A stretch of DNA of 64,000 bases from Mageeibacillus indolicus UPII9-5 (lineage in GTDB: Bacteria; Bacillota; Clostridia; Saccharofermentanales; Fastidiosipilaceae). Of this stretch, positions 2,365 to 59,424 are shown piece after piece. The number at the start of each line of letters is the position of its first letter. Positions within the stretch are counted from its first letter, which is position 1. Position numbers and translations under genes: made by a program. The notes below the pieces were generated by a model that worked only from the letters and a program-made list of their open reading frames with translations, had not been told where the DNA came from and did not search any database. The stretch is taken from positions 186,001 through 250,000 of the forward strand of contig NC_013895.2 in the NCBI RefSeq assembly GCF_000025225.2. The letters run 5' to 3'.

Positions 2365-3525
2365 TTGCAAATTGAACAATATCATACAGTTTCGAACAAG
2401 CGTGATCGTTGCTGGGCGGAAATAAGTTTGGCCAATCTGGCGAATAACATAGCCAATATTCGCGCCGCGATTGCTCCGCAAGTGAAAATAATGGGCGTTA
2501 TTAAGGGTGACGCTTACGGCCATGGTGCTGTAATGACGGCACGCACCATGATTGATTGCGGCGTGGAGTATTTGGCAGTGGCGACAGTTGACGAGGCCTT
2601 GGAGCTGCGCGGCAACGATATCAAAACACCGATTTTGGTCCTCGGCTACACCGATGTAAGTCGAGCGATGGATATAGTAGCGAATGATTTGACGCAAACA
2701 GTGTACGAATTGACGCTGCCGGAGGCGATGAGTTTGGCGGCAATAAAATTGAATAAAACTGCCAAAATACATTTGAAAATTGAAACCGGTATGGAACGCA
2801 TAGGAATCCCGGCAGATGAGCACTTGATTGAATTTGCCAAAAAATTATACGCTTTGCCTAATGTGGATGTTGAGGGAATATTTACTCATTTTGCCACGGC
2901 CGATGAGGCAAAATCAGATTTCGTAAAACTTCAGTTTGAACGATTTAAGAAAGCTACAGAAGTCCTTGCCACGGCCGGTTATTATCCTCGATATCGTCAC
3001 TGCTGCAACAGCGCGGCAATTTTGCGCTATCCGGAATACCACTTGGACATGGTACGAGCCGGCGGACTTGTCTATGGATTTGTGCCGGATTTTTGTCACG
3101 TACAACCCGGGCAATATAAACCGCTAATGAGCCTATATGCTAAGGTAGTATTGATCAAAAAAGTGGCAAAAGGAACTTCAATCGGTTACAATCGTCGCTT
3201 TACCGCTTCGCGTGACATGTGGGTAGCCACGATTTCGGTTGGATATGGTGACGGCATAGCTCGTGCATTGAGCGAAAAGCTGCAAGTCTTACTTGCTGGC
3301 CACCGCGTGCGGCAAGTTGGCAACATTTGTATGGACTTATGCATGATTGATATCACTGATATAGTTGATCAAGTTAAGCTGGGAGATCAGGTGACCGTGT
3401 TCGGCGCGGCAGCAACAAATTCGATGACAGCCGATGAGTTGGCGGCCTTACAAGGAACAATTAATTACGAAATTACGATAAATATTAATAAGCGCGTGCC
3501 GCGATTCTATGATTCAATATGCTAA
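2365..3525 (+). CDS. alr: Alanine racemase
   Basis: A 386-residue PLP enzyme converting L- to D-alanine for peptidoglycan. The PLP lysine is K47 in VIKGDAYGHGA, and the second catalytic residue is Tyr275 in SIGYNRRF. GYGDG and the C-terminal INYEITININKRVPRFY segment are typical. The start is TTG: an in-frame TAA lies two codons upstream and no ATG is available before conserved sequence; a GGGGG box sits about 8 bases before it. It follows nnr by 132 bases, which show no strong promoter. Confidence 0.95.
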   Translation: MQIEQYHTVSNKRDRCWAEISLANLANNIANIRAAIAPQVKIMGVIKGDAYGHGAVMTARTMIDCGVEYLAVATVDEALELRGNDIKTPILVLGYTDVSRAMDIVANDLTQTVYELTLPEAMSLAAIKLNKTAKIHLKIETGMERIGIPADEHLIEFAKKLYALPNVDVEGIFTHFATADEAKSDFVKLQFERFKKATEVLATAGYYPRYRHCCNSAAILRYPEYHLDMVRAGGLVYGFVPDFCHVQPGQYKPLMSLYAKVVLIKKVAKGTSIGYNRRFTASRDMWVATISVGYGDGIARALSEKLQVLLAGHRVRQVGNICMDLCMIDITDIVDQVKLGDQVTVFGAAATNSMTADELAALQGTINYEITININKRVPRFYDSIC

Positions 3526-3548
3526 TAGCATTTGCAAATGATCAAAAA

Positions 3549-3689
3549 ATGCAAAAGTTTTATGCTGCTTTTTTAGGCCTAATCCTTCTCTCTTGTGTAA
3601 TGAGTACACCTGTGCTAGCTGATTCAGATAAGTGTCCCTCTACTTCTGATATAGAAGGAAAGGTAGTTTTCTATGAAACAGTTAATTAA
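3549..3689 (+). CDS. Small ORF with a signal peptide, unrecognised
   Basis: A 46-codon ORF lies between alr and the VanZ-like gene. It begins MQKFYAAFLGLILLS and continues to TPVLADSDKC, giving a hydrophobic core and a plausible signal peptidase I site after VLA, with a mature part of only about 21 residues. LLSC could instead be a poor lipobox. Its last 17 bases overlap the next ORF, whose ribosome binding site lies inside it. No Shine-Dalgarno precedes its ATG. An ATG at 3538 reads MIKKCKSFMLLF and would enter this frame if the T run near 3569 had one extra T, so it may be a remnant of a longer secreted protein. No function is proposed. Confidence 0.35.
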   Translation: MQKFYAAFLGLILLSCVMSTPVLADSDKCPSTSDIEGKVVFYETVN

Positions 3690-4309
3690 AGTCTATCTGA
3701 AAAAAGTTATTACGGAGATCAGCCTGATTACCTTTACCGTACTAATACTATATTTCCTTGATAAGTATATTTTTAGTGATCTTATGAGCATTGGCAACGT
3801 AAGTCCTACTTTAGAAACTCCATTTTTTTTCGGTAACATTGCTCTTGGCCTTGTTAATTATTTTTCAAGCTATTTCCCATATTCTATATTATAAAGCCAG
3901 AATTTGGGCAATTATCTTGTGGGTGGCAAGTTTGGTATTATTGGTGGATTTGCTCGTGTTTCGCCCGGGACCTCAAGCTGAGGGAATAGAATTAAACCCT
4001 TTTGCGTTTATTCAAGATTTTTTTAATGATAATATATCAATTTATATAACTATAATAAATTTTGTTCTGTTTTTACTGATTGCATTTACCGGGTGCTTGG
4101 CAATGGGCAAATGGTCGTTGTACAAAGTTATCGCATTTAGCGCAGGGCTGGGTTTGGCGATCGAAGTTATACAACTATTGACGGCACGGGGGCTGTTTTC
4201 ATTAGCAGACTTTTTACTTTATACTTTAGGGGCTTTTTGCGGTGGATTTATATTTGTGGTAGCACGGCCGATTTTTCAGCGCCTAAAGATTGTCGAATCA
4301 ATAAGGTAA
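3673..4309 (+). pseudogene. VanZ-like membrane protein, split by a frameshift
   Basis: Two overlapping reading frames together encode one VanZ-like membrane protein of about 211 residues. Frame one (3673-3894) gives the N-terminus and first membrane segment after a GAAGGAAAGG ribosome binding site. The second frame holds the rest: NPFAFIQDFFNDN, then LGLAIEVIQLL and RGLFSLADFLLYTLGAFCGG, which are VanZ hallmarks. The break coincides with a run of eight T at 3823-3830; seven T would join the frames. The second frame could start at TTG 3839 but has no ribosome binding site. VanZ proteins are linked to glycopeptide resistance in some species, but most family members have unknown roles. Confidence 0.7.
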
Positions 4310-4330
4310 TGTACAGCAATTTGTCCCTGA

Positions 4331-4368
4331 CATAACTACCAAAAAGCAAAGTTATGTGATATCATAAT
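4331..4368 (+). promoter_or_regulatory. Candidate operator and -10 before the PucR-type regulator
   Basis: A perfect 7-base inverted repeat, CATAACT (4331-4337) and AGTTATG (4350-4356), lies just upstream of a -10-like CATAAT (4363-4368). No good -35 is present at the right distance, and the repeat covers that position. This suggests a regulated, possibly autoregulated promoter; it is an inference from layout only. Confidence 0.4.
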
Positions 4369-4407
4369 TTATGCATGATGACGTGTTGTGATTTGGGAGG
4401 TAATGCG

Positions 4408-5520
4408 ATGGAAAAAATGATCAGATGTGTGGAGAAAGCCGCGGAATTTACCGGTTTGGTATGTGGCATAATCGACAATACAGGCAAGGTTCTGATATGT
4501 TCCGATGACAGCCTGACCAACAGTGACGATCATTTTGCTCGCGAGTTTTTGTTGAGCGGCAATGATTTTGCGGTTAGTGGCCGATCATGCTACCGATCAT
4601 TTACGGACAGTTTAGGTAACGAATATGTCTGCTTTATGCAAGGTACTGATGATCACAGTCAGGCATATCTTAATTTACTTACCGGCTGGGTGAGCGAATC
4701 AATATACGATGCGAATACGGAAGTCAACCGAGAAGCTTTACTCAAAAACATATTGCTAGAAAATGAGTTGCCGGGAGATATTCCTCTCAAAGCACGCGAA
4801 TTCAAAATTCCATACGCGGCTCGCCGTGTGGCCTTGTTGGTTCATCTACCGCATCAGACCCCGATGGAAAACTTGAACGTTTTGCGCCAATTAGTTAACG
4901 ATCAACGTACAGATTTTCTCTTGTCTATGGATGAGAGCAACGTTGTTGTATTGAAAGAGATTGCGGCCGAGTCATACAAACAGGTTGAAGGTTTGGCCAA
5001 GGATATTTTGGCGGCATTTAAAGATGCCGATCCGGAAAGTAAGATTTCAATTGGCGTCGGTATGCCGGCTGATACGCTGCGTGAATGCGCCAAATCTTAT
5101 CGTGAAGCATCTTTGGCTTTGACGGTTGGAACGATTTTTGATCAGGAAACCCCGATAATGTATTACGACAAACTTGGTTTGGGGCGACTAATTTATCAAT
5201 TGCCGGCGACATTGTGCTATATGTTTCTTGACGAAGTTTTTCCCAATGATGCTTATGAGAATCTCGATTCTGAGACCCTGCTGACCATCAATAAATTTTT
5301 TGAAAATAATTTGAATGGATCCGAAACGGCGCGGCAGTTGTTTGTGCATCGTAACACCTTGGTTTACCGCTTGGACAAAGTCCAAAAGATAACCAACCTC
5401 GATTTGCGCAATTTCGATGATGCTGTTTTGTTCAAATTGGCAGCGATGGTACGCCAATACTTGGAACGCCAGAACGGCCTTAACTATGACCGGGCCAACC
5501 GTTGGTGGCAACACAATTAA
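4408..5520 (+). CDS. PucR/CdaR-type helix-turn-helix regulator
   Basis: A 370-residue probable DNA-binding regulator. The C-terminal PucR-type HTH (HTH_30) is clear: NGSETARQLFVHRNTLVYRL followed by DKVQKITNLDLRNFDDAVLF. The middle resembles the GGDEF-like CdaR/PucR central domain (SIGVGMPADTLRECAKSYREA). The N-terminal 150 residues match nothing I can name; the segment from GLVCGIIDNTGKVLICSDD looks PAS/GAF-like. The ATG at 4408 is preferred over one at 4375 because GGGAGG lies 9 bases before it. It ends in a terminator, so it is its own unit just before ftsEX. The effector is unknown. Confidence 0.8.
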   Translation: MEKMIRCVEKAAEFTGLVCGIIDNTGKVLICSDDSLTNSDDHFAREFLLSGNDFAVSGRSCYRSFTDSLGNEYVCFMQGTDDHSQAYLNLLTGWVSESIYDANTEVNREALLKNILLENELPGDIPLKAREFKIPYAARRVALLVHLPHQTPMENLNVLRQLVNDQRTDFLLSMDESNVVVLKEIAAESYKQVEGLAKDILAAFKDADPESKISIGVGMPADTLRECAKSYREASLALTVGTIFDQETPIMYYDKLGLGRLIYQLPATLCYMFLDEVFPNDAYENLDSETLLTINKFFENNLNGSETARQLFVHRNTLVYRLDKVQKITNLDLRNFDDAVLFKLAAMVRQYLERQNGLNYDRANRWWQHN

Positions 5521-52590: not shown

Positions 52591-53832
52591 ATGAAATACG
52601 TTAAATATGACTTAGCAACACATCAAAGAAAACCGAGCGAACCGATACGTTTGGTACATGCGGCGGATCTGCACTTAGGCCGAGGACGTGGTGGTAAACT
52701 GACGGCTTCTTCTGCTACCTCGAATTACGGCATAAGAACAGTCAGCGTTTATAACGAACAACGTCAATCCGGCTTCCGCGTTTTTAAAAATTTGCTTAAT
52801 CTAGTGGTTGAACAGCAGGCTGATCTGCTGCTTCTTGTCGGCGACATCTTGGAAATCGGCCGTTTAACGCCAGCTGAACTTAGATATATAAGCGATTCAT
52901 TCGCTGATTTGCCTTACCCTGTGTTGATAGTAGCCGGCAATCATGATCCACTTACGGATCTTTCCCCTTATCGACGCCTGAAATGGCCGGAAAATGTTTT
53001 CATTTTTCCGGGTGAATGGACGGCACTTGATCTTCCGGCCTTGAATTTAACGGTTTGGGGGCGGAGCTTTACTTCCGAACGGCAAAGCGACACCATGCTC
53101 CCTTCCGGTACGTATGTAGATTGGTGCGACGAACTTGCTCATCCTGAGCTGGTCACTCGAACATCCGTAGGAATGCTGCATGGGGAAGTAGTGGTTCCTG
53201 GAGGCCGGTCTTATTATAATCCGCTTACTGAAACACAATTGGCAGCAACCAAGTTATCTTACTTGGCACTGGGACACATTCATAAACCACGGATACTGGA
53301 ATTGTCGACTTGCGCGCTTGCTGCCTATTCCGGCTGCCTTTACGGCACAGGTTTTGATGAACAAGGACCGCGCGGAGCTGACGTTGTAACCTTGCCTTAC
53401 GAGGAAAAACCGACCATTGAATTCCATGCCTTGGCTGAGCATGAATTTTATGATTCTAGTTTGATGGTGAACTGGTCGACATCACTGCAAGCCAATGTCA
53501 ACACCGTGATGGAAGCTATACGACGCGATGATGCAAAGCCGGCCGACAATTTTTATCGGCTGCACTTAAGCGGTGAGCTACCCTCGGAGCTAAGCTGGAC
53601 TTGGGCTATGTTGGTGGCGGAACTACAGCAAAATTTTTACGATTTAACCGTGTATGACGAGACTGAGGCTAAGATTGATCTGATTGAGCTGAAAAAGGAG
53701 TTTTCGTTGCGCGGCTTAGTGGCGGCTGCTGCTTGGCAGGAAATAAGCATTTGCACCGATCCGCATCAAAAACATGAGTTGCAGGCGGCGTTACAGGTCT
53801 TGTTGCAAATTATGCACGAAACAAAGGCCTGA
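52591..53832 (+). CDS. SbcD-like metallophosphoesterase (YhaO type)
   Basis: A 413-residue calcineurin-fold nuclease of the SbcD/Mre11/YhaO group. Metal motifs are in order: HAADLHLG, LVGDILE, VAGNHDP, GMLHGEV and LALGHIHKP. It is followed after 36 bases by a large SMC-like ATPase, the usual nuclease-ATPase pair, so it probably processes DNA ends or aberrant structures. The ribosome binding site is weak (TAAGCTGA). Confidence 0.9.
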   Translation: MKYVKYDLATHQRKPSEPIRLVHAADLHLGRGRGGKLTASSATSNYGIRTVSVYNEQRQSGFRVFKNLLNLVVEQQADLLLLVGDILEIGRLTPAELRYISDSFADLPYPVLIVAGNHDPLTDLSPYRRLKWPENVFIFPGEWTALDLPALNLTVWGRSFTSERQSDTMLPSGTYVDWCDELAHPELVTRTSVGMLHGEVVVPGGRSYYNPLTETQLAATKLSYLALGHIHKPRILELSTCALAAYSGCLYGTGFDEQGPRGADVVTLPYEEKPTIEFHALAEHEFYDSSLMVNWSTSLQANVNTVMEAIRRDDAKPADNFYRLHLSGELPSELSWTWAMLVAELQQNFYDLTVYDETEAKIDLIELKKEFSLRGLVAAAAWQEISICTDPHQKHELQAALQVLLQIMHETKA

Positions 53833-53868
53833 CATCCGAAATGTTAAATTTTACATAATGAGGCGCAT

Positions 53869-56800
53869 ATGAAGTTTCGACAAATTCATGTTTACGGCTT
53901 TGGCAAGCTTGTGGACACAACAATAGATTTACATCCAGGTATGCAGGTTCTTTATGCTTCCAATGAACGTGGCAAGTCAACGTTATTAGCATTTATTCGT
54001 GCGATTTTTTATGGGTTGGGTGATAAAAAAAACCGTGATATCAGCAATTCACGTGAACGATACCGGCCGTGGATCGGCGGAACTTGGGGAGGATACATAA
54101 TCTTTGAACACCGCGAAAAATTGATGCGTTTGGAAAGAATCTTCGGAGAACGAAAAAGCGATGACAAGATAAGACTTTTTAACGAAAATACGGGAGAGGA
54201 AATACTCCGCATAACCAAAAGTCAAAAACAAGTCGGTGAAGTCTTGCTAGGATTTACACCGGATGAGTTTAATGCGACAACATACATTGGGCAAGCTCCG
54301 GCAGAACGCTATTTTCAAGATCGCGATAATGCGGTGTATTACCGATTATTGGCAATTTTAGGAAAACCGACTAGAGAATTCGACACTCAAACTATAAAAA
54401 ATAATATACGTGAAGCGATAAAACAGGCTACCCGCGGCAAAAATACCCGCTCATTAGAAGTTCTGCAAAATGAAGCGGAGGCGAATGCCGCAGTTTTGCA
54501 GCGAGAAAATGCTTGCAGAGCCGATTTAGCTGCAAGTGAGGCAAAATACCGAGCTGTGATTGACGCCGTTGAGACCAAGCAACAGAAATTGCTGGCTTCG
54601 CAAAAAAAATGTGAAAAATATCTCGAATTACAAACCTTAACCCAGAAAAAGTCTACTCTCCAAAGAGATTTAAGTGAATGCACTGAACTTAGGGTAACAT
54701 GGGAAAATCGTTGCTTGGATTTGGCAAAAAACGGGATTGATGGGGCAAACCACCAGCTTTATAAAACTGAACTGCCAAAACTGTTGAAAAAAGTACAGGA
54801 GCAGGCTTGGAGCTTGAAAAAAGCTGCTCAACGTCTCAGTGATTTGCGAAATAAATTAAATATAGCCGAAACTCAATTGGCTGCAAGGGCGATTAAGCCG
54901 AATAAGGCTGGCAAATGGCCCTGGGATGAATATACAGAGCAACAGAATGAATATCAAAAACTGGCAGCTTCTGCCGCGAAAACTAGTGAATTGCTTGACT
55001 TAAAAACAAGGCAAGTTGAATTACGTCGCCGCAGCTTGACCAAAGCAGAAGAAATAAAGTCAACTCAGACTGACTTGCAACGCATATATGACCAAATAGA
55101 AACGACCAAAAGTGAATTGCTGCAATACCAAGCCTTGGCCGCCAATGCCGCTCACCAAGTGGAAGTTGCTGAAAAAAAGTATGTGGCCGAAGAAGCGCGC
55201 TTGGATGAGAAACAGCGTATACGAACGCACGATCAAAAATTGCGCCTGCAACGCTATAATTTCCGTTTGAAACTTTTATCGTCTGCCGGCTTCGCCTTTT
55301 CTGCCATTGCAGTTATTCTAACTTTACTTACGACATTGCTATTCCAAAATGCCGTAGCTAAACAGGCCGGTTACGTTACCGCGATCATGACTTTGATAAT
55401 TGGGCTGGGCCTTCTCATCCACCGTAGCATTTTCCCTCCTGCCGAGCCGAAACCGATAAGCGATCCGGATTCAATATCCGGCTTAAACTATTTGAAGGCT
55501 GAAGCAGAAGACTTGCGCGGTAAGCAGATTAAACTCCAGCAGGAGATTAAAGTCAGATCGGCAGATATTACCACAAAAATCAATATGGCCGGCGAAAAAA
55601 AGGCCGTGCTAAGTGCCTTGAAAGCTGAAAAAAATTCTGCCGAGGAACTTGGCGAAGATCTGGCTGTCCAAATAGCCACTGCTGAGTCAAACTATAAACT
55701 TTCGCCTTCGATTAATAGCCTGAGCGAAAAAATTGATGCTTTGCGTAGGCAAATGCAGGAAATAGATGTATGGGGAAAAAACTTTTGTGACTTTTTCCAT
55801 ATCAAAGATGCCGATGTAAAGGCTTGGCAGATCGATTTTATGCAACAGAAACAGGCCGTGGAAATTATGCGGACAGACGTTGCTACAGCCGATGCTGATT
55901 ACAATGATGTAGCTGAATCGGCAACCGGATTGCTCGTACAAGTAAGGGAAAAATATCCTCAATTTATAATGGCTGAACCAGGGCCGTTTCTGAAACCGGA
56001 TACTAAGCCGGATGCGAACCCGGATGCGAACTCGGATGCTGAATCAGATAGTAAAACGGATCCTAAACCGGATGCGAACTTGGATGCGAACCCGGATACT
56101 GTTGCTGCAAACGAGGCTGTATCTGGACTCTTGAAATCGGATCCTTCAGCAGTCGATACCGTATTTTATAATTCTGCGCCTAGTGCCACGATACAATATA
56201 GCTTGGAAAAAGTTATACGATACCTAACCGATCTGCTGAATCGACTGCAAAGCTACGAACAGTTGGCGAAACAAGTTATGAAGAGACTGACGGATATAGT
56301 AACTGCGAATAATCTAAGTGCCTCTTTGAATGGCACAGTTTTGGCTAAAGTAGATCTGGTAAACTTTTTGCCCAATATCAGCAAAATACGAGAAAATTTG
56401 GCTGACCGAATATCAGAGATTGATGCTGTTCAAACAAAAACATTGGAAGAAATTTCCGACCATGATTCCGCTAAGGCTGATTTTGAGTTGGGCTTTCTTA
56501 AATCTGACGATATACATCAATCTGAATATCTAAATAAAAATATAGAAATGGAGCAAATTGCACAAGACAGCTTAAGGCAAGAAATAAAAGAAATGCAGCA
56601 GGAGGCAGAAGGCCGATTGATTGAGTTCCGAAACTACCAAAGCGAATTGGCCGAAATGGAAGAATTAAAGCGGCAACAAAAAGATTTGGCGATGGAAATC
56701 GAACTGAAGGAACAAAGCATTGCTCGTCTCAACAAAGCAGCAGCTTGGTTTGACCAAGCCGTTGAACATTTCGAAAACGAATTTTCGCCTAAATTAAGCG

Positions 56801-57183
56801 AGGCCGCTGGAAAATATCTTCGTGATCTCACCGCCAATCGTTATGATCAAGTACATATTGCTCGCAATTTTGCCACAAAAATTGATGTTGACGATTCCCT
56901 GATAATGAAGCCGAGTGAAGTTTTCAGTAACGGAACTTACGACCAAATATTTCTTGCCCAGCGTTTGGCGGTAATAGACTTCTTAGATACAAATCGAGAA
57001 TTGCCTATATTGGCGGATGACCCGTTTGTAAATTACGACCAGGAGAGAATGTGTGCCGCGTATAAACTGTTGGCAAAAATTGCCCATACGGATGACCGAC
57101 AAATCCTTATGGTAACCTGCCACGCCGCGCCTAACGGATTTATTCCTAAAAACGAAGGCTGCACATGGCAAGTTTGGCAATGA
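53869..57183 (+). CDS. SMC/Rad50-like AAA ATPase (YhaN type)
   Basis: A 1104-residue protein. Walker A ASNERGKST is at residues 30-38 and the C-terminal half-domain has the Walker B region LPILADDPFVNYDQERM near 1045 and SNGTYDQIFLAQRLAVIDFL before it. Between them are long coiled coils and, at about residues 467-520, two hydrophobic membrane-like segments, which are also seen in YhaN. Residues about 708-745 are a Pro-Asp-Ala/Lys repeat linker. It is expected to act with the upstream nuclease; the membrane segments suggest an anchored complex. No SbcC zinc hook (CxxC) is visible. Confidence 0.88.
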   Translation: MKFRQIHVYGFGKLVDTTIDLHPGMQVLYASNERGKSTLLAFIRAIFYGLGDKKNRDISNSRERYRPWIGGTWGGYIIFEHREKLMRLERIFGERKSDDKIRLFNENTGEEILRITKSQKQVGEVLLGFTPDEFNATTYIGQAPAERYFQDRDNAVYYRLLAILGKPTREFDTQTIKNNIREAIKQATRGKNTRSLEVLQNEAEANAAVLQRENACRADLAASEAKYRAVIDAVETKQQKLLASQKKCEKYLELQTLTQKKSTLQRDLSECTELRVTWENRCLDLAKNGIDGANHQLYKTELPKLLKKVQEQAWSLKKAAQRLSDLRNKLNIAETQLAARAIKPNKAGKWPWDEYTEQQNEYQKLAASAAKTSELLDLKTRQVELRRRSLTKAEEIKSTQTDLQRIYDQIETTKSELLQYQALAANAAHQVEVAEKKYVAEEARLDEKQRIRTHDQKLRLQRYNFRLKLLSSAGFAFSAIAVILTLLTTLLFQNAVAKQAGYVTAIMTLIIGLGLLIHRSIFPPAEPKPISDPDSISGLNYLKAEAEDLRGKQIKLQQEIKVRSADITTKINMAGEKKAVLSALKAEKNSAEELGEDLAVQIATAESNYKLSPSINSLSEKIDALRRQMQEIDVWGKNFCDFFHIKDADVKAWQIDFMQQKQAVEIMRTDVATADADYNDVAESATGLLVQVREKYPQFIMAEPGPFLKPDTKPDANPDANSDAESDSKTDPKPDANLDANPDTVAANEAVSGLLKSDPSAVDTVFYNSAPSATIQYSLEKVIRYLTDLLNRLQSYEQLAKQVMKRLTDIVTANNLSASLNGTVLAKVDLVNFLPNISKIRENLADRISEIDAVQTKTLEEISDHDSAKADFELGFLKSDDIHQSEYLNKNIEMEQIAQDSLRQEIKEMQQEAEGRLIEFRNYQSELAEMEELKRQQKDLAMEIELKEQSIARLNKAAAWFDQAVEHFENEFSPKLSEAAGKYLRDLTANRYDQVHIARNFATKIDVDDSLIMKPSEVFSNGTYDQIFLAQRLAVIDFLDTNRELPILADDPFVNYDQERMCAAYKLLAKIAHTDDRQILMVTCHAAPNGFIPKNEGCTWQVWQ
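55988..56102 (+). repeat. In-frame repeats encoding PD-A/T-N/K units
   Basis: About nine imperfect 12-base units related to CCGGATGCGAAC encode a PDAN/PDTK-like stretch in the coiled-coil arm of the ATPase. Confidence 0.75.
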
Positions 57184-57203: not shown

Positions 57204-57716
57204 TTACTTCCCCAAAAAATTATTGTCAATGTCCAATGGCAGGTTAAACGTGTATCCGGCCGTACGTAAAAGTTTGAGCTTTAGCATCACATATTCAGCC
57301 GGGCAATGTAAAATGACGGCAAGGCTGGTGATGTCCGTAGTGAAAACCAGTTCTGACAAAATAGATTCGTCATCGATGAGCAGATCAGCGGCAAACAAAT
57401 TGGCCTCGTATTCTATCTTGGTGGATCTTCCGCTCAACTTGTAGTCCAAGTAAGGCAGGTTTATTGCTTGCTTGCAGTGTAAAACGGCATGCCCTAGTTC
57501 ATGTGCCAAAACCGTTTTGTGCCAATGCTCATCCAGTCCGATGTTGATAACAATGTTTGGCTCACCGTCCAAGTTGACGAAAAATCCTTTGAGTGATCCT
57601 AAATCTTTGAATGAAACGAAAATATTTTCGGCTTCTGCTAATTCCAACGGATTACGCGTGCCAGATTTTTCGACCAAGTCCTGCACGGTTTGTCGTATAT
57701 AAGAAAGTAAACTCAT
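57204..57716 (-). CDS. ImmA/IrrE family metallopeptidase
   Basis: A 170-residue zinc protease of the COG2856 group. The HELGH motif is at residues 72-76 and the third ligand is probably E104 in IEYEANLFAADLL. Such proteins cleave a partner XRE repressor on a signal (ImmA-ImmR in ICEBs1, IrrE-DdrO in Deinococcus). Its start overlaps the stop of an XRE gene by 4 bases on the same strand, the classic arrangement. It converges with the yhaN-type gene, 20 bases apart. Confidence 0.92.
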   Translation of the reverse strand: MSLLSYIRQTVQDLVEKSGTRNPLELAEAENIFVSFKDLGSLKGFFVNLDGEPNIVINIGLDEHWHKTVLAHELGHAVLHCKQAINLPYLDYKLSGRSTKIEYEANLFAADLLIDDESILSELVFTTDITSLAVILHCPAEYVMLKLKLLRTAGYTFNLPLDIDNNFLGK

Positions 57717-58099
57717 GATTTGCCTTCGTCGGACGAAACTGCTTGATGCTTTCTGGCAGCGGCATCATTTTGTATATCAATTAGTGCTTTAATAAATTTA
57801 TCTTTATCTTCTTCATTGAGACTTCCGCCGGACAGAAGTGACCCTACCTGAGCAAGCAACTCACATGGCGGTAATACTTCATAAGAGACGGAATCATTAC
57901 TACAGAGATCATCTACCAGATAAGAAACGTTTACATGAAAAAAATTACCGATTGCAACTAATGTATCTCGGGGCGGAAATCTATGGTTATTTTCATAATA
58001 AACCAAAGCTCTTAAACTTATTTTCAATTCCTCGGCAAGCTCTGCTTGAGTAATATGATTTAAGCGACGCAGTTCACGTAACTTCTCTCCGAAAGTCAT
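57713..58099 (-). CDS. XRE family transcriptional regulator
   Basis: A 128-residue repressor-type protein. The N-terminal HTH is MTFGEKLRELRRLNHITQAE followed by LAEELKISLRALVYYENNHR; the C-terminal 60 residues are acidic and helical (SLNEEDKDKFIKALID). ATG 58099 follows AGGAGG; an upstream TTG at 58117 would place the ribosome binding site inside the gene. The gene reads away from a Y-family polymerase gene and shares the 110-base intergenic region, so it is the obvious candidate regulator of both sides. Its likely control is cleavage by the coupled ImmA-type protease. Confidence 0.92.
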   Translation of the reverse strand: MTFGEKLRELRRLNHITQAELAEELKISLRALVYYENNHRFPPRDTLVAIGNFFHVNVSYLVDDLCSNDSVSYEVLPPCELLAQVGSLLSGGSLNEEDKDKFIKALIDIQNDAAARKHQAVSSDEGKS

Positions 58100-58110
58100 A
58101 CAGCCTCCTC

Positions 58111-58138
58111 TTGACAATGCACGAATGTGCGCTATAAT
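58111..58138 (+). promoter_or_regulatory. Consensus promoter with an embedded palindrome
   Basis: Perfect TTGACA and TATAAT with a 16-base spacer drive the Y-family polymerase. A GCACGAATGTGC sequence (inverted arms GCAC/GTGC) fills the spacer at 58119-58130, and a related GAACGTTTGTGC follows at about 58151-58162. Both contain ACG-N2-TGTGC. They are good candidate operators for the XRE regulator. Confidence 0.75.
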
Positions 58139-58209
58139 TCAAATCAACAAGAACGTTTGTGCATATAAGACTACTCGCAAAGCGAATAAATGTCAATTGG
58201 GAGGCTTTT

Positions 58210-59424
58210 ATGAGGTGGATTTTACACAGTGATATGAACAGTTTTTTTGCATCAGTTGAATTATTGTATAGATCAGATTTAAGAGGTCGACCGGTAGCTG
58301 TATGCGGCAGTGTTGCCGAACGCCACGGAATAGTTCTGGCCAAGTCGGATGAAGCCATGAGATACGGTATAAAGACAGCTGAAACTATATCTGAAGCTAA
58401 CTCCAAATGCCGCGACTTGAGGATAATATCACCGCATTACGAGCTATACAAAAAATACTCTAAAATGGCAAAAGAAATATATGAACGCTATAGTGACAAA
58501 GTGGAGCCGTTTGGCCCTGACGAATGCTGGATAGATGTAACATTCATGGTAGACAGCTGGGCAACTGCTGTAAATTTAGCTATCCAAATCAAAAATACAA
58601 TAAAGGCCGAACTCGGGTTAAACGTATCCATTGGGGTGGCACATAATAAGTTTTTGGCCAAAATGGGAAGCAAGCTTGCCAAAAGGAACGGAATAAAGAT
58701 TATAGACAGCGAGACTTGGCAAAGAGAGATTCTGCCGCTTGACTTAACGCACATGTTCGGCTGCGGCAAAGCAACAAGAGAGAAACTGGCAAAATATGCC
58801 GTTAAAACAATTATGGATTTAGCAGGTATGAATTACGATTTTTGTGCAGCAGTGTTGGGAAAAAACGGCACGGTACTTTGGCGATGGGCCAATGGAGTTG
58901 ACACATCACCTGTTATAAGTTCCTACGAACGCCGACAGAGCTTAAGTTTAAGCCACGGCATAACTTGCCGTAAAGATTTACATTCGATAAATGAAATACG
59001 CCGGGTGATCCAATTCCTATTGAAAGATATAGTCGGACAATTGCACCGCAGCGAAATCGGCGGCAGCAGCATAGAAATAATCGTTAAATTCGTTGACCTG
59101 AAAGCAAGGCGCTATACAGCAAATTTATTGGAGCCGTTAAACAGCTATTTTGCATTAGAACGAAGCTATGTACAGCTGCTGCAAAAAGAAGGCGGTGTGC
59201 CGGGAGACGGAGTTAGAGCTGTTACTATCGGAATAAGCACATTCAAGAAAATTCAAGCAGGCACAGGTAAAATTGATAATATTGGATGTAACATGCGAGG
59301 CAAAGCCGACCTGACACAAACATGGTATAAATTGCGCAAACTGTTTGGATCAAATGCTCTTTACCATGCGGGTGAAGCAATTGGCGGTAATTTACCAAAC
59401 TATGTTCAAAATGAGGTTTGTTAA
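58210..59424 (+). CDS. Y-family DNA polymerase (DinB/UmuC-like)
   Basis: A 404-residue translesion polymerase. The first metal site is in LHSDMNSFFASVE (D8) and the second in EPFGPDECWIDVT (D104, E105), so the catalytic acids are complete. The HhH region (LTHMFGCGKATREKLAKYAV) and a little-finger domain follow. ATG 58210 has GGGAGG 6 bases upstream. It is transcribed divergently from the XRE-ImmA pair, so damage-dependent derepression is likely. The GPDECW variant of the usual SIDEAF motif is noteworthy. Confidence 0.92.
   Translation: MRWILHSDMNSFFASVELLYRSDLRGRPVAVCGSVAERHGIVLAKSDEAMRYGIKTAETISEANSKCRDLRIISPHYELYKKYSKMAKEIYERYSDKVEPFGPDECWIDVTFMVDSWATAVNLAIQIKNTIKAELGLNVSIGVAHNKFLAKMGSKLAKRNGIKIIDSETWQREILPLDLTHMFGCGKATREKLAKYAVKTIMDLAGMNYDFCAAVLGKNGTVLWRWANGVDTSPVISSYERRQSLSLSHGITCRKDLHSINEIRRVIQFLLKDIVGQLHRSEIGGSSIEIIVKFVDLKARRYTANLLEPLNSYFALERSYVQLLQKEGGVPGDGVRAVTIGISTFKKIQAGTGKIDNIGCNMRGKADLTQTWYKLRKLFGSNALYHAGEAIGGNLPNYVQNEVC

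Follow-up and report, generated by a model that had tools for sequence, protein, structure and literature searches.

A candidate LexA-independent switch in Mageeibacillus indolicus: an XRE-ImmA gene pair facing a Y-family polymerase gene

The window analysed here is a stretch of 64,000 nucleotides from the genome of Mageeibacillus indolicus UPII9-5, and positions without further specification refer to it. It contains a compact unit of three genes. Two of these lie on the minus strand: an ImmA/IrrE-type metalloprotease of 170 aa (M78, COG2856; 57204..57716), which matches PF06114 (1.2e-10) and possesses an intact HELGH...H motif plus E102, and a predicted XRE repressor of 128 aa (57713..58099), assigned by its HTH_19/HTH_3 matches, a 44-row alignment and a structure model. 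The XRE stop codon overlaps the ImmA start codon in a 4 bp ATGA on the minus strand (57713..57716). The third gene, on the plus strand, encodes a DinB-like Y-family polymerase of 404 aa (58210..59424; PF00817, 7.1e-42; PF11799, 6.1e-08), and the start codons of XRE and polymerase are 110 bp apart. An earlier sequence-only reading had described a repressor and its coupled protease, translationally overlapped and facing a translesion polymerase; the ATGA overlap and the Pfam matches of all three proteins confirm this description. For XRE, the best start is ATG 58099 and not the listed TTG 58117. For the polymerase, ATG 58210, which is preceded by GGGAGG, was chosen because related polymerases start at the same ILH.DMN motif; the listed GTG 58159 lies further upstream. 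The neighbours of the unit look like housekeeping genes. A metallophosphoesterase/Rad50-like pair (YhaO/YhaN-type, 52591-57183) reaches to within 20 bp of the immA stop; on the polymerase side yicC is found among the neighbours, beside a short ORF and gmk-/glyS-type genes. Judging from their sequences, we take the short ORF near yicC to be RemA-type, further ones to be gmk- and glyS-type, and an ORF beside the locus to be gapA-like.

The protease residues H72, E73, H76 and E102 are invariant in 41 ImmA homologues. The ImmA model (pLDDT 88) consists of the peptidase fold and two C-terminal helices, and no GAF-like or other sensor domain is visible in its 170 residues. Its fold matches are to CapP (7t5t, the top one) and to IrrE/PprI; among them is the ssDNA complex 8sln. 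In addition, the CapP profile covers residues 7-142 of ImmA (8.6e-12) and the CapH profile residues 1-101 of XRE (1.8e-6). XRE is composed of an HTH domain (1-65), a linker and two C-terminal helices (78-90 and 96-122), whose connecting loop contains the invariant pair G91-G92. The HTH domain is ImmR/DdrO-like: a structure search with residues 1-69 of the model listed the DNA-binding domain of ImmR among the best matches. According to PMC10904395, the cleavage of DdrO takes place in a C-terminal-domain loop; by analogy, the G91-G92 loop is a candidate cleavage site of XRE. In the polymerase, residues D8, D104 and E105 are conserved in an alignment of 27 sequences.

The intergenic region contains two promoters facing each other. 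The polymerase promoter TTGACA-16-TATAAT (58111..58138, plus strand) scores 12/12 and is the sole perfect site among 27 found on both strands between 54000 and 64000, in line with the perfect consensus claimed before. The best candidate for an XRE-immA promoter, TTGACA-17-TAGTCT (58170..58198, minus strand), scores 9/12 and is weak at its -10 box, which matches just 3/6. Two operator-like dyads of 12 bp each are spaced 32 bp centre to centre: O1 (GCACGAATGTGC, 58119..58130) lies inside the -35/-10 spacer of the polymerase promoter, and O2 (GAACGTTTGTGC, 58151..58162) adjoins the predicted XRE start point. Both correspond to the pattern GMACN4GTKC, which was picked after the dyads had been seen. 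The sequence-only reading had missed these dyads as well as the facing promoter; it had stated rightly that the shared region contains no canonical LexA box, as the perfect core GAACN4GTTC is absent there. Taken by itself, the window gives a borderline repeat signal, with p-values of 0.049 in one test and 0.17 in another.

Searching the genome for further copies of the operator had been proposed in the same reading, and here the outcome was negative. A motif built on the two sites gave no second promoter target genome-wide; its best matches, five other sites with GMACRWWYGTKC, are all located within ORFs. The pattern GMACN4GTKC occurs at 58 places versus 92 for the reversed control and is hence not enriched. 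The genome-wide site listing, together with a reading by eye of the region upstream of recA, contained no operator match there.

The genome (1.81 Mb, one contig, 99.99% complete) gave no Pfam match to the LexA DNA-binding domain PF01726; the control search for this domain was positive in 10 of 14 genomes, B. subtilis included. For this genome, the earlier proposal of a LexA-independent control is supported. RecA is present, and a search of the whole genome with the polymerase as query found no match but the polymerase itself. The sole S24-type match is an ORF of 124 aa that has no fused HTH and no LexA match in NCBIfam. Within contig positions 642545-645811, it is located downstream of a separate 149-aa HTH ORF, and the two possibly represent a split CI-like repressor. 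Three further M78 proteases are encoded at contig positions 182002, 1295357 and 1741773. The latter two are near-identical, and the protein at 1295357 is shortened and has no adjoining XRE gene.

An ImmA match was found in 15 of 148 relatives, and in nine of these, the own genome included, the polymerase is divergent from XRE-ImmA (G000, G006, G007, G008, G010, G013, G018, G029 and G099). In G001 and G070, XRE-ImmA is followed by a Y-family protein of weak similarity in the same orientation, and the first G001 copy has no adjoining polymerase; the rest of the ImmA-positive set lies at contig edges (G002, G055) or consists of weak matches (G049, G127). From 118 relatives in GTDB genomes, 80 named loci were retained; a divergent polymerase is present at 22 of these and adjoins a second XRE gene in one case (L144). 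The named carriers include Papillibacter cinnamivorans, Murdochiella massiliensis, Pseudoflavonifractor sp. An44, Blautia parvula and a Treponema MAG; the polymerases of the Blautia and Faecalimonas loci show distant similarity only (E about 1e-13 to 1e-15). For the best 30 loci from 393 genomes of the class, the polymerase is divergent in 11 (own included) and colinear in 3. Five genes that flank the unit in the window were sought at 26 polymerase-linked loci and did not turn up at any of them, which indicates that the unit moves or stays together as a unit.

Several of the related loci differ in their content. In G018 (L152), the reading frame of the polymerase (3141-4469) is broken by a stop, and XRE-ImmA and the promoters are kept. 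Sinanaerobacter chloroacetimidivorans (L092:3681-4235, minus strand) has a 185-aa ORF divergent from XRE-ImmA, which begins with the polymerase-like AILHSDLN and then contains cysteine pairs and, of the polymerase domains, just the little finger (PF11799); judging from these features, it may be the remnant of a polymerase or else an accessory protein that has been reworked. On the conjugative plasmid pRUMAL02 of Ruminococcus albus 7 (L199, 3081-5619), XRE, ImmA, a Y-family polymerase and YolD are encoded in one direction, a form of the cassette that is both mobile and colinear. At L083, XRE-ImmA is divergent from an ORF of about 408 aa, identified by a domain scan of this locus as argininosuccinate synthase, with an M42 peptidase downstream. 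Divergent ORFs of the same size occur at L087, L089, L093, L104, L105, L113 and L125, and a different output of XRE-ImmA pairs is possible in these cases. A further family of divergent proteins of about 187-205 aa is found upstream of XRE-ImmA at L094, L098, L101, L103, L106, L131 and L153. None of the three members scanned (L094, L101, L153) matched a Pfam family; for the related L088, the scan gave just a sub-threshold DUF1492.

The promoter arrangement was compared in 26 intergenic regions, in all of which a Y-family polymerase is the output. This set drops L109 (a near copy of L108), L117 (no XRE match) and L144; L128 and L152 represent G099 and G018, and the 11 divergent loci of the class-level survey were not added. 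The best promoter scores at least 10/12 on the polymerase strand in 24 of the 26 regions and on the XRE strand in 22. The summed scores were 283 and 276, respectively, whereas 100 shuffles per strand reached at most 227. In 23 regions the two promoters face each other. The distance from -35 to -35 is 77-99 bp in 22 regions (mean 86.5, s.d. 4.8; the 22 distances were read by hand from the promoter listing), and the exceptions are G008, L090, L115 and L123. In contrast, random placement gave 2.3 regions in this range, with a maximum of 9 in 2000 placements. That gene order and promoter geometry are conserved in many Clostridia argues for the coupling of repressor, protease and polymerase suggested by the sequence-only reading.

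Less uniform are the putative operators. 9-mers of the polymerase-promoter spacer recur 101 times in their own regions, far above chance: shuffled sequences gave 14.6 on average and 33 at most. Palindromes in the spacers barely exceed chance (93 versus a mean of 87 and a maximum of 95). The motif itself varies by locus: it is ACTTCCGATT in L090 and L097, TGAAGTTCAAC in G010 and GGGGAAGATGATTTCC in L133. The similarity of recognition helices correlates with that of operator regions, given C-terminal similarity, with r 0.20-0.29 (p 0.00025-0.0012) in a masked whole-region test that was designed after a weaker spacer-only test; the latter gave p 0.03, and 0.09 given the C-terminal domain. As operator-region similarity tracks C-terminal similarity too, descent may also account for this covariation. 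The XRE-polymerase intergenic region of G007 (L060), a genome which has LexA, contains the perfect Gram-positive LexA core box CGAACAACTGTTCG in the polymerase spacer; this sequence suggests that the locus could be under dual control.

PF01726 is absent from 13 of the 148 relatives. LexA is missing in 7 of the 15 ImmA-positive genomes versus 6 of the 133 others (p 3e-5, ancestry ignored), and within the families f1 and f3 the test of ImmA against LexA absence gave p 0.012. Of the 393 class genomes, 58 have a strong ImmA match (E at most 1e-40), and LexA is missing in 29 of these (both counts tallied by hand) versus 54 of 335 others (p 8e-8, ancestry ignored). This value overstates independence, because 18 of the 29 LexA-less genomes belong to two families (f15 and f17) and several f15 loci have no polymerase within 1.5 kb. 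In a set of 50 out of the 80 named genomes, linkage to the polymerase showed no association with LexA loss: 7 of 22 linked and 11 of 28 unlinked ones had no LexA match, according to counts read by hand. Consequently, the cassette is found in genomes with LexA as well as in genomes lacking it; Papillibacter cinnamivorans DSM 12816 and Pseudoflavonifractor sp. An44 are cultured carriers with LexA.

A bacterium without LexA, the usual regulator of the DNA-damage response, seems to run an error-prone polymerase by means of a dedicated repressor and protease. We consider it probable that the locus is a LexA-independent switch which serves this one translesion polymerase and relies on cleavage of the XRE repressor by ImmA. 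In the undamaged cell, XRE would occupy the two dyads that lie between the facing promoters, O1 being within the polymerase promoter, and would repress its own operon as well as the polymerase. ImmA would then be activated by a signal of DNA damage, most likely ssDNA as for PprI and CapP, and would cut XRE in the C-terminal dimer region, most likely in the conserved loop around G91-G92. With repression lost, the strong promoter would give a burst of polymerase; when the signal fades, newly made XRE would reset the switch. More tentatively, and with less confidence than doubt on our part, we propose a generalization for several LexA-less Clostridia. There, SOS mutagenesis may have shrunk to a self-contained cassette, in which ImmA would read ssDNA directly, independently of RecA and LexA, and destroy the repressor; operators would diversify between species at fixed facing-promoter geometry. 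Such a cassette would be a portable one-gene SOS response.

The nature of the trigger is where a different view has most in its favour. The same repressor-protease-polymerase switch might respond not to DNA damage but to a change in zinc or redox state, to a peptide, or to an antirepressor of a mobile element. ImmA of ICEBs1 is described as answering cell signalling too (PMC10233336), IrrE can, according to PMC7907104, be activated through zinc, and the 170-aa ImmA has no visible sensor domain. However, the conserved Y-family polymerase output of all 26 regions points to DNA damage, and the structural relatives PprI and CapP are reported to sense ssDNA (PMC10904395), which is why we regard a trigger of another kind as unlikely, if worth keeping in mind.

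Improbable is, in our opinion, a scheme in which the sensor is RecA rather than ImmA alone, such that RecA filaments activate ImmA or another LexA-less control is layered on. RecA is encoded in the genome, and the damage activation of ICEBs1 is RecA-dependent according to PMC10233336; on the other hand, PMC10904395 reports that ssDNA activates both PprI and CapP in vitro and drastically raises the cleavage of DdrO, and recA itself has no operator match. The pair could also be what remains of a mobile element's immunity module and lie beside the polymerase by chance, considering that ImmA relatives occur in phages (34 records) and plasmids (12 records), that the conjugative R. albus plasmid carries the colinear set, and that the own genome encodes other M78 proteins. 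We think this very improbable, as the unit recurs with differing flanks and fixed promoter geometry and sits here among housekeeping genes. Finally, we give hardly any credence to an undetected LexA-like protein acting on the two dyads with XRE-ImmA being secondary: the dyads do resemble GAACN4GTTC, the LexA-bearing G007 has a LexA box in its spacer and one S24-type ORF exists, but the genome has no PF01726 match, the S24 ORF is a 124-aa piece with neither a fused HTH nor a LexA match, and GMACN4GTKC is less frequent than its reversed pattern.

The favoured reading, a damage-induced switch dedicated to the polymerase, bears on the control of mutagenic polymerases in LexA-less bacteria, which is settled in few groups only. 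For Clostridia, gut species included, the cassette offers a concrete and testable answer comprising three genes. Fixed promoter geometry in combination with changing operators makes the loci a natural series for studying the co-evolution of repressors and operators. Outputs of XRE-COG2856 pairs other than a polymerase are described in PMC8072749, PMC2701414 and PMC8457756; translesion synthesis would join the known ones, i.e. excision, CBASS and radiation response. The polymerase is probably a new output of such a pair: literature searches, which took in few subscription papers, found no published description of XRE-ImmA divergent from a Y-family polymerase.

Compared to known systems, the locus shares with the LexA/RecA SOS response the proposed induction of a translesion polymerase by repressor proteolysis, and its dyads loosely resemble the Gram-positive box; unlike there, the genome has no LexA DNA-binding domain and the locus no canonical box. 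In ImmR/ImmA of ICEBs1 from B. subtilis and in the related phage and ICE systems, an XRE repressor and a COG2856 protease are likewise encoded in one operon, and the HTH of ImmR is 38-39% identical to that of XRE in structure alignments. Here, however, the putative target is a facing chromosomal Y-family polymerase in a housekeeping neighbourhood and not a set of excision genes. CapH/CapP of CBASS is similar in that the CapP and CapH profiles cover more of ImmA and XRE, and ssDNA-activated cleavage is reported for CapP (PMC10904395). It differs in its output, which is CBASS and not a polymerase: the polymerase has no PADLOC match in a run covering the three genes, and no CBASS genes were found among the Pfam-scanned neighbours. 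With DdrO/IrrE (PprI) of Deinococcus, the parallel drawn by the sequence-only reading, the locus has in common the peptidase fold, an XRE repressor with a C-terminal domain and an output in DNA repair. IrrE, in contrast, is described as having a three-domain layout with a GAF-like domain (PMC10904395), for which the 170-aa ImmA has no room; moreover, the genes are adjacent and overlapping here, and there is one apparent target instead of the DdrO regulon. The parallel therefore holds as an analogy and not in detail, given the missing GAF-like domain, an HTH nearer to ImmR, the more extensive matches of the CapP/CapH profiles and the lack of a second target. In Acinetobacter, a LexA-less genus, UmuDAb/DdrR similarly provides a dedicated repressor of error-prone polymerases, and its operator overlaps divergent promoters (PMC7273328). 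UmuDAb is a UmuD homologue, whereas the locus described here has an XRE protein and a protease encoded separately; it is a functional parallel made from different proteins.
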